Below are positions 7,775 to 20,664 of a stretch of DNA of 40,351 nucleotides, piece by piece. How positions within the stretch are numbered: the stretch's first letter is position 1; each line of letters starts with the position of its first letter. A model generated the notes under the pieces. The model was not told where the DNA came from. It searched no databases and saw nothing but the letters and a program-made list of their open reading frames with translations. This stretch comes from an uncultured Bacteroidota bacterium (lineage in GTDB: Bacteria > Bacteroidota > Bacteroidia > Flavobacteriales > Flavobacteriaceae). The position numbers were made by a program, and so were the translations under genes. Where the stretch lies: assembly GCA_903839195.1 (NCBI GenBank), contig CAIMBK010000061.1, forward strand, positions 1 through 40,351, in the 5' to 3' direction.

Positions 7775-9289
<1,515 letters not shown>

Positions 9290-13987: not shown

Positions 13988-15835
13988 TTATTCTACGGTT
14001 ACCGATTTTGCTAAATTTCTTGGCTGATCGACATTGCAGTCACGCATAACCGCAATATGGTAAGAAAGCAATTGCAAAGGAATGGTAGTTAATAATGGCG
14101 AAAGCGCATCTGATGTTTCTGGAATTTCGATTACATAGTCCGCCAAATCCCGAACTTGCGTATCTCCTTTTGTAACCACCGCAATGATTTTTCCTTTTCT
14201 AGATTTTATTTCTTGAATATTACTCACTACTTTGTCATAATGACCTTGTTTTGGAGCAATTACAACAACCGGCATGTGTTCGTCAATTAAAGCAATTGGA
14301 CCGTGTTTCATTTCAGCAGCGGGGTATCCTTCGGCATGAATATAAGAGATTTCTTTCAATTTCAATGCGCCTTCCAAGGCTACAGGGAAATTATACCCTC
14401 GTCCTAAATAAAGACAATTGGGTGCGTCTTTGAATACGGCAGCAATTTCTTTAGCTTTATCGTTGGTTAGAAGTGCTTCTTCTACTTTTTCTGGAATGAC
14501 TTCCAATTCTTGTAAATACCTATGAAAATCAGAATTTGACAGCGTTCCTTTAGCTTTTGCCAATCGAAGGGCGATCATTGTCAAAACAGTAATTTGTGTC
14601 GTAAATGCTTTTGTAGACGCTACTCCAATTTCTGGCCCAGCGTGCGTATAGGCTCCTGCGTGGGTTTCTCGTGATATGGAAGAACCAACAACATTACAAA
14701 CTCCAAATACAAAGGCGCCTTTTTCTTTGGATAATTTTATGGCCGCTAGTGTATCGGCAGTTTCACCAGATTGTGAAATTGCAATTACGATATCGCCTTT
14801 ATTGATAATTGGATTTCTATATCGAAATTCGGAAGCGTATTCAACTTCAACAGGAATTCGGGTAAATTCTTCTATTACATATTCAGCCACCAAACCAGCG
14901 TGCCAAGAAGTTCCGCAAGCTACAATCAGGATTCTATTGGCATTCAAGAATTTTTCTAAATTGTCTTCAATTCCTGCCATTTGTATCAGGCCTAAATTTG
15001 CATGAAGTCGGCCTCTATAAGTGTCTTTGATAACATTTGGTTGCTCAAAAATTTCTTTAAGCATAAAGTGTTCGTAACCGCCTTTTTCAATTTGCTCCAA
15101 ATTTATTTTTAATTCTTGTATGTAAGGATCAACCAAAGAATCGTCTTTGATTTTTCTAATTTTTAATGGTTTGTGTAAACGAACAATGGCCATTTCTTCA
15201 TCTTCAAGATAAATAGCATTGGAGGTATATTCTATAAATGGGGACGCATCAGATGCGATGAAATATTCATTTTCACCAACGCCAATAGCTAACGGACTTC
15301 CAAGTCGGGCAACCACAATTTCGTCTGGAGTTTTTTTGTCAAAAACACAAATCGCATACGCGCCAACCACTTGATTTAGGGCAACTTGAACGGCTTTTCC
15401 GAGTTTTAGATTTTCTTTTTTCTGAACTTCTTCAATTAAATTTGCCAACACTTCTGTGTCGGTATCGGAATGAAAAACATAGCCTCTGTTCATTAATTCC
15501 TTTTTCAATGGCGCATAGTTTTCTATGATTCCATTATGAATGATGGCTAAATCTCCTGAATTTGATAAATGGGGATGCGAGTTTACGTCGTTTGGAACGC
15601 CATGAGTGGCCCATCTGGTGTGGCCAATTCCAATAGTTCCATTAGTAGAAATTTCTGTTAATGATTTTTGTTCTAATTCAGAAACTTTCCCTTTTGTTTT
15701 GGAAAGTTTTAAATCATTTCCATCATAAAGCATAATTCCCGCGCTGTCATACCCTCGGTATTCTAATCGTTTTAAACCTTTGATTATTATTGGGTAAGCT
15801 TCTCTGTAACCGATATATCCAACAATTCCACACAT
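13988..15835 (-). CDS. glmS: Glutamine--fructose-6-phosphate aminotransferase (isomerizing)
   Basis: MCGIVGYIGYREAYPIIIKGLKRLEYRGYDSAGI; SIS domains; C-terminal DQPRNLAKSVTVE. Confidence 0.98.
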   Translation of the reverse strand: MCGIVGYIGYREAYPIIIKGLKRLEYRGYDSAGIMLYDGNDLKLSKTKGKVSELEQKSLTEISTNGTIGIGHTRWATHGVPNDVNSHPHLSNSGDLAIIHNGIIENYAPLKKELMNRGYVFHSDTDTEVLANLIEEVQKKENLKLGKAVQVALNQVVGAYAICVFDKKTPDEIVVARLGSPLAIGVGENEYFIASDASPFIEYTSNAIYLEDEEMAIVRLHKPLKIRKIKDDSLVDPYIQELKINLEQIEKGGYEHFMLKEIFEQPNVIKDTYRGRLHANLGLIQMAGIEDNLEKFLNANRILIVACGTSWHAGLVAEYVIEEFTRIPVEVEYASEFRYRNPIINKGDIVIAISQSGETADTLAAIKLSKEKGAFVFGVCNVVGSSISRETHAGAYTHAGPEIGVASTKAFTTQITVLTMIALRLAKAKGTLSNSDFHRYLQELEVIPEKVEEALLTNDKAKEIAAVFKDAPNCLYLGRGYNFPVALEGALKLKEISYIHAEGYPAAEMKHGPIALIDEHMPVVVIAPKQGHYDKVVSNIQEIKSRKGKIIAVVTKGDTQVRDLADYVIEIPETSDALSPLLTTIPLQLLSYHIAVMRDCNVDQPRNLAKSVTVE

Positions 15836-15847
15836 AAATTTAAGTTT

Positions 15848-17518
15848 TTAATTAGGCTTGGTATAATAAATTTCTAGTTTTAATCTTTTGGCGTAATTTG
15901 GGTCTCCAACCGGAATGTTATTTCCAAACAAAACCGTTCCTAAAGGATTAATTACGGAAGATAATGGGGTCCGATCGACTGGAATTCCTGTCAAAGTTGG
16001 GGTTTTTAATTTGGCCGATGTTACGGTTGCTATGGCTTCTGTAACAACCAATCCCAATCTGATATTTGTAGAATCTTTGTTTATAAGATTTCTAATATGA
16101 TTGGTTAATCGTATTTTATATTGATACCCTCTTTTATTTCCAGTGGTTGCTTTTTCTATAATTCCTCCATGAATTGCTTTGTTAAATTTTGGAATTGAAT
16201 TTAATGAAATATCGGTATAATAGTCAATAATTGGGCGTTTGTTATTTAAATCATAAAGATAGATTCTATTAGGCTCTGAAGCTCCTGAAATGGCAGAAGA
16301 ATCAATTGAAAATATTAGATTGGCTTCGTTTACCAATAATTTTTGCCCGTTGGAAGGATTTCTCAAATCGTCTAATTCATCGGAAACGCCATTAGGTCCT
16401 GAGGTAGGATTTCCATCCGTATCAAATCCTCGAATATCTGTTTCTCCAAAAAGCGAAATAACCGCCATGGAGCCAGCGCCTCCTTTTAGAAACAACTTAG
16501 AATCGCCTTGAGCGGTATTAATTCCTGAAGTGATATTGGTAACATATTCATTGGAATAATCATTTTCAAAGACATTTACAGTATTTCCAGCAAGATTCAG
16601 AATTAATGTTTTTTCTTCTGTGGTAATCGTTCCATCGGTTGCTGTAATGGATACATTATAGGTAATTGTAATTTTCCCTTTTTTGAAATCAAGCATGGCT
16701 AAACTTCCTTGTTCGGGAGAATCCGAATTTGCTTCTGTTTTAAAATACAAACCTCTAAAATATTCTTTAAAGACATTGTTGTTTATTAATTTTCCTGCAG
16801 TTGATCCGTTGAAAATTTTGTCTTGAAAGAAACTTTTTCTAAGATTTAATCGCATTCCTGGAGCCGTTCTTGTGTCAACGGTTTGGGTTCCGTCAACCGT
16901 TTTGTAGGTTTTTAATTCTTCATTACTAAAGAAAAACGCATCGTTTTGACTTGGCGAATCGGCATCGTCATTCAATCGGTCTGGATTTTTATTAGCATCA
17001 AAATTGGGTCCGTCGCCAGAATAATATTTTTGAACGTCTTCAAAGCCTGTTGCGGCATCTAAATCTCTTAAATAATATTTCGATTCATAAACGCTCAACT
17101 TTATTTTTGAACTTCCGTAAATAGAATCCAATTCATAAGTATGGTCGCCCGTTGTTGCGTCTGTATTGGTCAATGTGCTATAATATGGTAGCGAAAGCTC
17201 TACTTTAGTAACAGTTGGATTGGTTCCAAAAGTTGGATTGGCTCCAATTAATTCTACTTGAGTAACGACGCTAGCTTTGGTTTTTCCAAAAAAGGGATTG
17301 TTATAATATCCTAAGGAATTTATTGGCAAATTATTTGATTGTACGGAGCCTAAATTTTGATTATAAGCAACTAAAGTATGGGTGTCATCTTTTATTAGTC
17401 CGTAATGATCGTCTCCAATAATGGAAGACCCAATTTCGTTAAAGTCTTTATCGCAGGAAGAAAAAATCACCACAAACATCACAAAAAGCATGTATTTCAA
17501 AAACGAATTATTTTGCAT
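15848..17518 (-). CDS. DUF4270 family lipoprotein
   Basis: Start probably MQNNSFLKYMLFVMFVVIFSSCDKDFNEIGSSIIGDD (17518) with lipobox FSSC; adjacency to a glycogen-synthase-like gene and glmS. Confidence 0.8.
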   Translation of the reverse strand: MQNNSFLKYMLFVMFVVIFSSCDKDFNEIGSSIIGDDHYGLIKDDTHTLVAYNQNLGSVQSNNLPINSLGYYNNPFFGKTKASVVTQVELIGANPTFGTNPTVTKVELSLPYYSTLTNTDATTGDHTYELDSIYGSSKIKLSVYESKYYLRDLDAATGFEDVQKYYSGDGPNFDANKNPDRLNDDADSPSQNDAFFFSNEELKTYKTVDGTQTVDTRTAPGMRLNLRKSFFQDKIFNGSTAGKLINNNVFKEYFRGLYFKTEANSDSPEQGSLAMLDFKKGKITITYNVSITATDGTITTEEKTLILNLAGNTVNVFENDYSNEYVTNITSGINTAQGDSKLFLKGGAGSMAVISLFGETDIRGFDTDGNPTSGPNGVSDELDDLRNPSNGQKLLVNEANLIFSIDSSAISGASEPNRIYLYDLNNKRPIIDYYTDISLNSIPKFNKAIHGGIIEKATTGNKRGYQYKIRLTNHIRNLINKDSTNIRLGLVVTEAIATVTSAKLKTPTLTGIPVDRTPLSSVINPLGTVLFGNNIPVGDPNYAKRLKLEIYYTKPN

Positions 17519-17537: not shown

Positions 17538-18344
17538 TTATAGAACTGTTTCTTTATAGAAATTTGTATACGTTTCGGCAAATTTCTCTTTCGGTGTGAA
17601 AGGTAAAAAAGGTTTTTCCGAAGATTCTATAAATTTTGTTAAACTTGAAGAAACGTTTTCCGAAGCGATGATTACGGCATCCGAATGAAGAATCGAAGCT
17701 TTGATAATGCTTTCATAATCAGCTGTTTTCAATAATGAAACGGCCTGTTCTGGAATCCCGTCAAATGTCACTTTATTGATCATTTCTGGATTTAATTTTC
17801 CTTCAAAAGATTGACTATATACCGAAGTCACGATTTTTGTTTCAGAAAAAAGCGCTTCGTCTTTATAATAATGTTTCAAATAAATAGGCAATAATGCTGC
17901 CATCCAACCATGAACATGAATAATATCGGGAACCCAGTTGAGTTTTTTTACAGTTTCAACTACGCCTTTTGCAAAAAAGATAGCACGTTCGTCGTTGTCT
18001 GGAAACAAAATTCCTTCTTCGTCTGTAAAAGTTGCTTTCCTTTTGAAATACTCATCATTATCTATAAAATAAACTTGAATTCGTTCTTTTGGGATTGATG
18101 CTACCTTGATAATCAAAGGCATATCCAAATCGTTAACGACTAAATTCATCCCCGACAAACGAATTACTTCGTGCAATTGATGTCTTCGCTCATTTATATT
18201 GCCATATCTTGGCATGAAAATTCTAATTTGCCCTCCTTGATCATTGATCATCTTTGGCACGTCATATGACATTAGAGAAACCTCGTTTTCAGCTAAGTAG
18301 GGCACTACTTCAGATGACACATATAATATCCTCTTATCCTCCAT
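17538..18344 (-). CDS. Glycogen/starch synthase-like protein, N-terminal (GT5) domain only
   Basis: KRILYVSSEVVPYLAENEVSLMSYDVPKMI..GQIRIFMPRYGNINER..DIIHVHGWMAALLPIYLK resemble the GT5 N-domain; 268 aa, no C-terminal GT-B half. Confidence 0.8.
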   Translation of the reverse strand: MEDKRILYVSSEVVPYLAENEVSLMSYDVPKMINDQGGQIRIFMPRYGNINERRHQLHEVIRLSGMNLVVNDLDMPLIIKVASIPKERIQVYFIDNDEYFKRKATFTDEEGILFPDNDERAIFFAKGVVETVKKLNWVPDIIHVHGWMAALLPIYLKHYYKDEALFSETKIVTSVYSQSFEGKLNPEMINKVTFDGIPEQAVSLLKTADYESIIKASILHSDAVIIASENVSSSLTKFIESSEKPFLPFTPKEKFAETYTNFYKETVL

Positions 18345-18383: not shown

Positions 18384-18391
18384 CAAAATTA
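18384..18391 (-). promoter_or_regulatory. Candidate -7 box (TAatTTTG) for the GT5-like gene
   Basis: CAAAATTA on + strand; about 40 nt upstream of ATG at 18344; no clear -33 TTG. Confidence 0.45.
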
Positions 18392-18422: not shown

Positions 18423-18430
18423 TAAGTTTG
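18423..18430 (+). promoter_or_regulatory. Candidate -7 box (TAagTTTG) for panC
   Basis: TAAGTTTG, 24 nt before panC ATG at 18454; no clear -33 TTG. Confidence 0.5.
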
Positions 18431-18453: not shown

Positions 18454-19302
18454 ATGCTCATTTTCGATACTCAGGAAGCAATTCGGGCGTATATAAAATC
18501 CATAACAACGGATAAAACCTCGATTGGTTTTGTGCCAACTATGGGGGCGCTTCATCTCGGGCATCTTTCGTTAATAAAGGAATCGTTACAACAAAACTCA
18601 TTCACAATTGTAAGTATTTTTGTTAATCCAACGCAATTTAACAATCCGGAGGATTTGGCAAAATACCCTCGAACTTTGGAAAGCGATATCGTTAAAATAA
18701 AAACCATTAACACGGAAATTGTTGTTTTCGCTCCAAGTGTTGCCAATATTTATGAAAATCAAATTCATTCCGAACGTTTTGATTTTGATGGTTTAGAAAA
18801 TCAAATGGAAGGAAAATTTAGACCCGGACATTTTGATGGCGTTGGAACCATTGTTCGAAGATTATTTGAAATAATAATGCCAACACGAGCTTATTTTGGC
18901 GAAAAAGATTTTCAACAATTACAGATTATTAGGAAAATGGTTCAAAAGAATAATCTTCCTGTACAAATAATTCAATGCCCTATTTATAGAGAATCCAATG
19001 GGCTTGCTATGAGTTCTAGAAACGAACGATTAAGCCCAAATGAGAGAGAAGAAGCGGCGGTAATTTTTCAAACATTAAAAAAAGTGAAAGCGGATTTTAA
19101 CCAAAAAACCCAAGCTGAAATTACTACATGGGTGCATCACGTTTTCGAAAAACATCCCTCAATTAACCTAGAATATTTTCAAATTGCGGACGAAGCCACT
19201 TTATTACCTTCTGAAAACGAACAAAACAATTATAAATATCGAGCATTTATTGCGGTTTTTATCAACAACATTCGATTGATTGATACTATTTCATTAAATT
19301 AA
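18454..19302 (+). CDS. panC: Pantothenate synthetase
   Basis: [50 protein letters not shown]. Confidence 0.97.
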
Positions 19303-19315
19303 TTACCTTTGTACC

Positions 19316-19666
19316 ATGCAAATTCAAGTAGTAAAATCTAAAATTCATCGCGTTACCGTTACGGGCGCCGATTTAAATTATATCGGAAGCATCACTATTG
19401 ACGAAGCTTTGATGGAAGCGTCAAATATTATTGAAGGCGAAAAAGTTTCAATTGTAAACATCAACAACGGCGAACGTCTTGAAACCTACGTCATCAAAGG
19501 AAATCGCAATAGTGGCGAAATTACTTTGAACGGTCCCGCTGCTAGAAAAGTTCAAAAAGGCGATATCATCATCATTATTTCCTACGGAATTTTGGATTTT
19601 GAAGAAGCCAAAACGTTCAAACCTTCTTTGGTTTTCCCAAATGAAAAAGACAATTCATTGACTTAG
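19316..19666 (+). CDS. panD: Aspartate 1-decarboxylase
   Basis: [29 protein letters not shown] (GS autocleavage site), [21 protein letters not shown]. Confidence 0.97.
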
Positions 19667-19683: not shown

Positions 19684-20664
19684 ATGAAAATATCCTCACA
19701 AAAAAATACACAAATCGGCAAATGGCTTTCCATTACAATTCCGTTACTTTTGGGTGTTTTTCTGGTACTTTATTCTTATTATTCTTTTACTCCCGAGCAA
19801 CTTTCAACCATCACAAAACATTTTGAAAACGCGAATTACAACTACATTGTAATCACGTTATTTATTGCCTTATTGGGTGGCGCTTCAAGAGCTTATCGTT
19901 GGAAATTTTCGTTGGAACACATGGGTTATAAAACCTCTTTTACGAATAATTTTATGGCCGTTTCTATTGGCTATTTAATAAACATGACCATTCCACGATC
20001 TGGGGAAATTTCGAGAGCATTAATTATAAAAAAATATGAAAACGTTCCATTTGACAAAGCATTTGGAACCATTGTTGCCGAAAGAATTATCGATTTAATC
20101 GTGCTTTTGTTTTTTATTATTCTTGCTTTTTTTCTTCAATTTGATGTCGTAAAAGCCTTTGTAATTGATAAAATTCCTTTTGAAAAAATAATAGCGCTAG
20201 TGGTTTTTGGAATAATTTCGCTTCTAATTGCCGTTTTGTTATTTCTTTATTCAAAATGGCCAATAATTGCCTCTATTAAACTTAAAATTTCGGGACTAAA
20301 AGAAGGTCTTTTGAGCATTTTTCACATGAAGAAAAAATGGCAATATTTATTTCATACTTCCTTTATTTGGTTTTCCTATATATTGATGTTTTATATTGGG
20401 ATTTTTGTCATTTCAGAAACAAGCAATATTGGTATTGGCGCCGTAGTTACATCCTTTGTTGTGGGAAGTATCGCCATCGCATTTACAAACAGCGGTTTTG
20501 GTTCTTACCCATTTCTGATTGCAAAAATTCTTTTATTTTATAATGTTTCCGAAACTGCCGGAAGTGCTTTTGGTTGGATTATTTGGACATCGCAACTCTT
20601 TTTGGTTTTGCTTTTGGGCACCCTGTCATTTTTACTACTTCCTATTATCAACAGAAAAAAATAA
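19684..20664 (+). CDS. Lysylphosphatidylglycerol synthase TM-region / UPF0104 flippase-like membrane protein
   Basis: Polytopic; GGASRAYRWKFSLEHMGYKTSFTNNFMAVSIGYLINMTIPRSGEISRALIIKKYENVPFDKAFGTIVAERIIDL. Confidence 0.88.
   Translation: MKISSQKNTQIGKWLSITIPLLLGVFLVLYSYYSFTPEQLSTITKHFENANYNYIVITLFIALLGGASRAYRWKFSLEHMGYKTSFTNNFMAVSIGYLINMTIPRSGEISRALIIKKYENVPFDKAFGTIVAERIIDLIVLLFFIILAFFLQFDVVKAFVIDKIPFEKIIALVVFGIISLLIAVLLFLYSKWPIIASIKLKISGLKEGLLSIFHMKKKWQYLFHTSFIWFSYILMFYIGIFVISETSNIGIGAVVTSFVVGSIAIAFTNSGFGSYPFLIAKILLFYNVSETAGSAFGWIIWTSQLFLVLLLGTLSFLLLPIINRKK

Follow-up and report, generated by a model that had tools for sequence, protein, structure and literature searches.

In Flavobacterium johnsoniae the BAM complex consists of BamA and five further proteins, BamD, BamG, BamH, BamM and BamP, and BamH (Fjoh_0823), a surface lipoprotein of this complex, is essential (PMC12611786). 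The same work built an inducible promoter on the 100 bp that precede fjoh_0824, and its description of the complex does not name the GT5-like protein that is the subject of this study, of which Fjoh_0824 is the probable F. johnsoniae orthologue. For glycogen synthase, the roles of the residues that contact donor and acceptor have been tabulated for E. coli GlgA (PMC6210743). A 2024 review states in one sentence that Bacteroidetes keep a GlgA-GT5 fragment, which is very probably the gene described here; that mention covers neither residues nor gene context nor function. The literature searched held no account of operon ancestry, of the residue pattern or of retention in symbionts. In the open literature we found no functional study of the half-size protein, and no functional data under Fjoh_0823/0824, under guessed locus tags of B. 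theta and P. gingivalis or on symbiont glgA; the main text of a P. gingivalis essential-gene paper names nothing relevant. The gene is easily mistaken for a glycogen synthase and, because it also occurs in genomes that have no other glgA, metabolic reconstructions can be misled.

Identity and fold

In this study we focus on a window of 40,351 nucleotides, the whole stretch of DNA analysed, from a metagenome-type assembly (2.03 Mb, 93.6% complete, 130 contigs) nearest to Flavobacterium. The feature of interest is:

17538..18344, minus strand: half-size GT5-like putative pseudo-glycogen synthase, 268 aa (ORF, profile, AF2 model, residues and tree)

The ORF starts with ATG and runs without interruption. 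In the Pfam search it matches Glyco_transf_5 with E 2.2e-51 over positions 1-222 of the 239 of the profile, and its score of 175.3 bits against a gathering threshold of 22.7 makes it a member of the N-domain family. Active GT5 enzymes are two-domain GT-B proteins of about 470-500 aa; here the N-domain stands alone, and the same search found no Glycos_transf_1 half, the second GT-B domain, in the ORF. The best NCBIfam match reached 167 bits, far from the GlgA equivalog cut-off of 754. The segment HVHGWMAALLPIYLK is retained, while AENEVSL is read where GlgA has KTGGLAD. The sequence-only reading had described a half-size glycogen synthase-like protein that keeps this segment and lacks both KTGGL and the C-terminal half, a description that the ORF, Pfam, NCBIfam and AF2 analyses bear out. 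A profile search of the source genome gave no further PF08323 protein above the cut-off.

The AF2 model (pLDDT 93.4, pTM 0.92) resembles only the N-domains of starch and glycogen synthases, namely plant starch synthase IV (6gne, TMq 0.74), A. tumefaciens GlgA (1rzu, 0.66-0.69) and E. coli GlgA (2qzs, 0.64), in the structural comparison that had been proposed for it. With these enzymes the protein has the N-terminal GT-B Rossmann fold in common, at 15-19% identity in the structural alignments, but it has neither the donor domain nor the catalytic residues. It starts at beta strand 1 with no signal peptide apparent by eye, and is thus presumably cytosolic. Exactly 268 aa were found at 67 of the 78 Flavobacterium-group loci checked and 267 aa at nine more, so that this length is not due to chance.

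Residue pattern and selection

Residues were counted in 35 half-size proteins and 13 full-length relatives, in E. coli GlgA numbering. Among the donor contacts, K15 and G18 occur in none of the 35 half-size proteins and H161 in three; G17 is likewise absent from all, and R300, K305 and E377 of the donor site are missing with the C-domain in 35/35. The acceptor contact D137 is retained in 6/35; elsewhere on the acceptor side, E9 is present in 32/35 and the residues equivalent to Tyr95 and Tyr165 are aromatic in 27/35 and 23/35, respectively. All 13 full-length relatives retain all of these residues, with positions 95 and 165 aromatic. This pattern speaks against sugar-nucleotide sensing, which had been offered as one possible role: most donor contacts belong to the domain that is absent, K15, G18 and H161 have gone from almost every member, and the acceptor side, with most of its aromatics, is better kept. 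Nucleotide-sugar sensing was dropped as a candidate on these grounds.

An alignment of 25 half-size sequences has R41, R53, L57, H58, V60, R62, L63, K80, V81 and A82 invariant, as well as Q90, Y92, D95, R102, D116, N117, R120 and H143. Many of these residues are common to full-length FCB GlgA, which points to an inherited surface that is still under selection; since part of this conservation is inherited, it does not on its own demonstrate a new function. Among close relatives, dN/dS is 0.02-0.07 for the GT5-like gene, 0.02-0.04 for glmS, 0.09-0.17 for panC and 0.10-0.24 for bamH, values for which synonymous sites are close to saturation in several pairs. Descent from an active-type GT5 (see below), loss of the catalytic residues and purifying selection are, at the sequence level, the marks of a GT5-derived pseudoenzyme. 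The half-size protein is therefore very likely a conserved non-catalytic pseudoenzyme, and the earlier suggestion of a conserved non-catalytic role gains support from residue pattern, tree and dN/dS alike.

Gene neighbourhood

The neighbouring features of the window are:

13988..15835, minus strand: glmS, glucosamine-6-phosphate synthase, next in the presumed operon
15848..17518, minus strand: bamH, DUF4270 surface lipoprotein, BAM subunit (NF053686, E 1.8e-188; PF14092, E 4.6e-75)
18384..18391, minus strand: -7 element TAnnTTTG (taattttg), just 5' of the half-size gene
18423..18430, plus strand: -7 element TAnnTTTG (taagtttg) of the divergent panC
18454..19302, plus strand: panC, divergent neighbour (TIGR00018)
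19316..19666, plus strand: panD, 3' of panC (TIGR00223)

The divergent panC and the downstream DUF4270 and glmS genes, already recognised from the sequence, agree with the profile matches. The bamH ATG (17516-17518) follows the stop codon of the half-size gene by 19 nt, and 12 nt separate bamH from glmS; given these gaps the three genes likely form an operon. This ATG, opening the protein MQNNSFLKYMLF...SSC, is the likely start of bamH, rather than the TTG at 17581, which is too early; the 577-aa ORF that starts at this TTG overlaps the GT5-like gene by extension only. The Bacteroidota -7 promoter element TAnnTTTG begins 44-47 nt 5' of the GT5-like ATG in 78/78 related loci (2/78 in the in-gene control), and a second TAnnTTTG is found on the panC strand in all 78. 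A flippase-like LPG_synthase_TM protein (19684-20664, plus strand) follows panC-panD in the window, and does so in many, not all, relatives.

Origin of the half-size gene

Families of Bacteroidota outside Bacteroidia also carry the half-size form, where the gene is followed by genes for a BamH-like lipoprotein, BamG and a TPR protein. The BamH-like lipoproteins give weak DUF4270 matches (E 1e-6 to 0.02; none at locus L122), and the BamG proteins match NF053685 with E about 1e-70, slightly below the cut-off. With distances taken from listed coordinates and the Chlorobium-like family f16 left out of the count, bamG lies 1.3-2.0 kb 3' of the half-size match on the same strand in 47 of 48 non-Bacteroidia genomes, and 2.2-2.8 kb 3' of the full-length N-domain match in 26 of the 34 genomes that have a full-length gene as best match. 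Read directly, the loci L185 and L188 encode a full-length GlgA with KTGGL, then a HAD phosphatase, a lipoprotein at the place of BamH and a BamG-type barrel, followed in L188 by a TPR protein. At L185, L186 and L188, glgA, the gene of a glycogen enzyme, unexpectedly leads an operon that includes bamH-like and bamG genes. At locus L213 the lipoprotein encoded in the bamH position, between the half-size gene and bamG (8003-9163, plus strand), has no Pfam match and is probably a highly diverged BamH.

In the N-domain tree the half-size proteins form one clade (100/99), nested within a clade of BamG-linked FCB-type full-length GlgAs (98/99). Outside this FCB-type clade, together with E. coli GlgA, are the true GlgAs from Bacteroidia. 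Along with the shared operon position, the tree indicates a single loss of the C-terminal half, during which the gene kept its site. What the half-size protein retains is the N-terminal GT-B domain, and its ancestor was a Bacteroidota GlgA encoded at the head of a glgA-bamH-bamG operon.

The full-length GlgAs of non-Bacteroidia (L185-L189) have a homologous N-domain, including RxxxxLHxVxRL, and occupy the same place upstream of bamH-like and bamG genes. They differ from the half-size protein in being about 490-510 aa long, with KTGGL, D137, H161, R300, K305 and E377, and are presumably active. The Chlorobium-like full-length GlgAs (L140, L153), probably of the PRK14098/NF010698 type, form the sister group of the half-size clade, modestly supported (89/90), and have lost KTGGL too (VRISALADF), but unlike the half-size proteins they retain the C-terminal domain and E377, with R300 and K305 changed. 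Their changes (L140, L153; genomes G149, G193) read K15R, G17S, G18A/S, R300G/N and K305Q. Judged by sequence, they may represent a second pseudoenzyme state, of independent or earlier origin, in organisms where no other match was found; being sister and without KTGGL, they hint that catalysis decayed before truncation.

Distribution and minimal genomes

A profile of the half-size protein, run on Bacteroidia genomes with a requested completeness of 95% or more, matched 393 of 396 genomes and 193 of 195 genera, with listed ORFs of about 268-321 aa; the other three assemblies, in which it had no match, are fragmented into 300-410 contigs. The absence of KTGGL and of the C-terminal half is a fixed trait in Bacteroidia and outside the class as well, and the panC/DUF4270/glmS arrangement is widely conserved, which answers both checks that the sequence-only reading had called for. 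The divergent panC is retained at most Bacteroidia loci, and bamH followed by glmS is common 3' of the half-size gene, with bamH lost at some (L132, L115). In one family metK (SAM synthetase, by eye) replaces glmS on the 3' side, both at a locus without bamH (L115) and at one with it (L119). In many genomes the half-size gene is the only match; a partner role in glycogen metabolism was rejected, as the gene is present independently of true GlgA.

Furthermore, all 38 sampled 0.6-Mb symbiont-like genomes of one genus, which belongs to the same order as the source genome, carry the half-size gene, as does a 345-kb genome (G211), in a 264-aa copy. DUF4270 was undetected in the ten 0.6-Mb genomes tested, by models that are weak on diverged BamH, so that its absence is not proven; at the six 0.6-Mb loci read (L190-L194, L197) bamH is missing and glmS directly follows the half-size gene. 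No panC, glmS, bamH, bamG or GlgA was detectable in G211, where BamA- and Skp-like genes adjoin the half-size gene and murC-G, mraY and ddl are present. One highly complete genome of the order is without the half-size gene (G414, 334 kb read, 432 bp unread); it has BamA and Skp, and mur genes were not detectable in it. The contrast between G211 and G414 hints at a peptidoglycan-related task and does no more than that, as these genomes differ in 130 of 299 ORFs. The half-size gene is thus among the most persistent of a major gut and environmental phylum. Retention in minimal genomes that lack its usual neighbours, the identity of DUF4270 as BamH and the ancestral glgA-bamH-bamG operon are points that the sequence-only reading had missed.

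Discussion

Our preferred reading, which we hold to be somewhat more probable than all others together, is that the half-size protein is a cytosolic pseudo-glycosyltransferase, probably essential, with a non-catalytic role in cell-envelope biogenesis, the biochemical part of this role being inferred. An ancestral operon-linked GlgA lost its donor residues and whole C-domain once, and with them, by inference, glucose transfer, and it remained in place under strong purifying selection. The protein might bind a saccharide in the old acceptor groove, where the equivalents of Glu9, Tyr95 and Tyr165 are mostly Glu or aromatic, which from the sequences is conceivable though the less probable outcome; or it might bind a protein partner through the near-invariant R-x4-L-H-[EQ]-V-[IV]-R-L and K-V-A segments. 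Its task would lie in peptidoglycan and amino-sugar synthesis or in outer-membrane assembly, independently of BamH, GlmS and glycogen. Near-universality in Bacteroidota and retention in tiny symbiont genomes suggest an important non-enzymatic envelope job, and from this retention the protein is probably essential; that its task concerns the envelope, a link drawn from neighbours that vary by lineage and from a two-genome contrast, is about an even call. Tentatively, the protein could act as a near-universal, probably essential cytosolic regulator that binds a saccharide or a protein and ties envelope production (peptidoglycan and amino sugars, together with BAM) to carbohydrate status.

One alternative is a BAM-specific factor that aids production or assembly of BamH or BamG. 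It would account for the conserved linkage, as at most of the Bacteroidia loci examined the gene stands directly upstream of bamH, and in non-Bacteroidia upstream of a bamH-like gene and bamG, and in F. johnsoniae BamH is Fjoh_0823, with the promoter taken upstream of fjoh_0824 (PMC12611786). However, the half-size protein shows no export signal by eye, in contrast to the outer-membrane location of BamH and BamG; moreover, the gene is retained in 38/38 0.6-Mb genomes, ten of which, like the 345-kb genome, have no detectable DUF4270, and in the 345-kb genome bamG is undetectable too. BAM as the sole role was dropped after these genomes, and we consider a BAM-specific factor rather unlikely. A GlmR-like protein that senses an amino sugar and tunes GlmS and UDP-GlcNAc supply is to our mind similarly improbable: glmS comes just after bamH at most Bacteroidia loci examined, or directly after the half-size gene at the six 0.6-Mb loci, and peptidoglycan synthesis differs as expected between G211 and G414, but G211 has the protein without detectable glmS, glmS is not beside the gene at the non-Bacteroidia loci read, and the nucleotide-binding residues are lost.

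With the gene placed before bamH, and before bamG in other lineages, a link between carbohydrate metabolism and envelope assembly can be put to the test in F. johnsoniae, for which bamH depletion tools exist.

A split GT-B enzyme of the Alg13/Alg14 type, with the C-half encoded elsewhere, would suit an N-half that alone gives a confident predicted fold, but it is very improbable. The N-side catalytic residues are lost as well, the Glycos_transf_1 matches of the source genome all fall in frames of 311-381 aa, which exceeds the size of a lone C-half, and the 345-kb genome gives no such match at E<=1, nor do four 0.6-Mb genomes above the cut-off; no separate C-terminal half of the PF00534 type was thus found in the source or minimal genomes. 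Of the refuting conditions that the sequence-only reading had named, a C-terminal half elsewhere and a frameshift were looked for, and neither turned up. Both this role and a BAM-only role misfit the 345-kb genome, in which bamH, bamG, glmS, panC and a GT-B C-half were not detectable. Still less credit is due to a functionless remnant kept as promoter carrier of the operon, in spite of the conserved -7 element just upstream and the missing catalytic residues; purifying selection on the protein sequence (dN/dS 0.02-0.07), a length of 267-268 aa at 76/78 Flavobacterium-group loci and persistence in minimal genomes after operon break-up effectively refute it. Finally, truncation of a normal glgA by assembly error or frameshift, for which one could invoke a metagenome-type assembly of 130 contigs, deserves practically no weight, as the ORF is intact, the same length recurs in many isolate genomes and the next gene begins 19 nt downstream.
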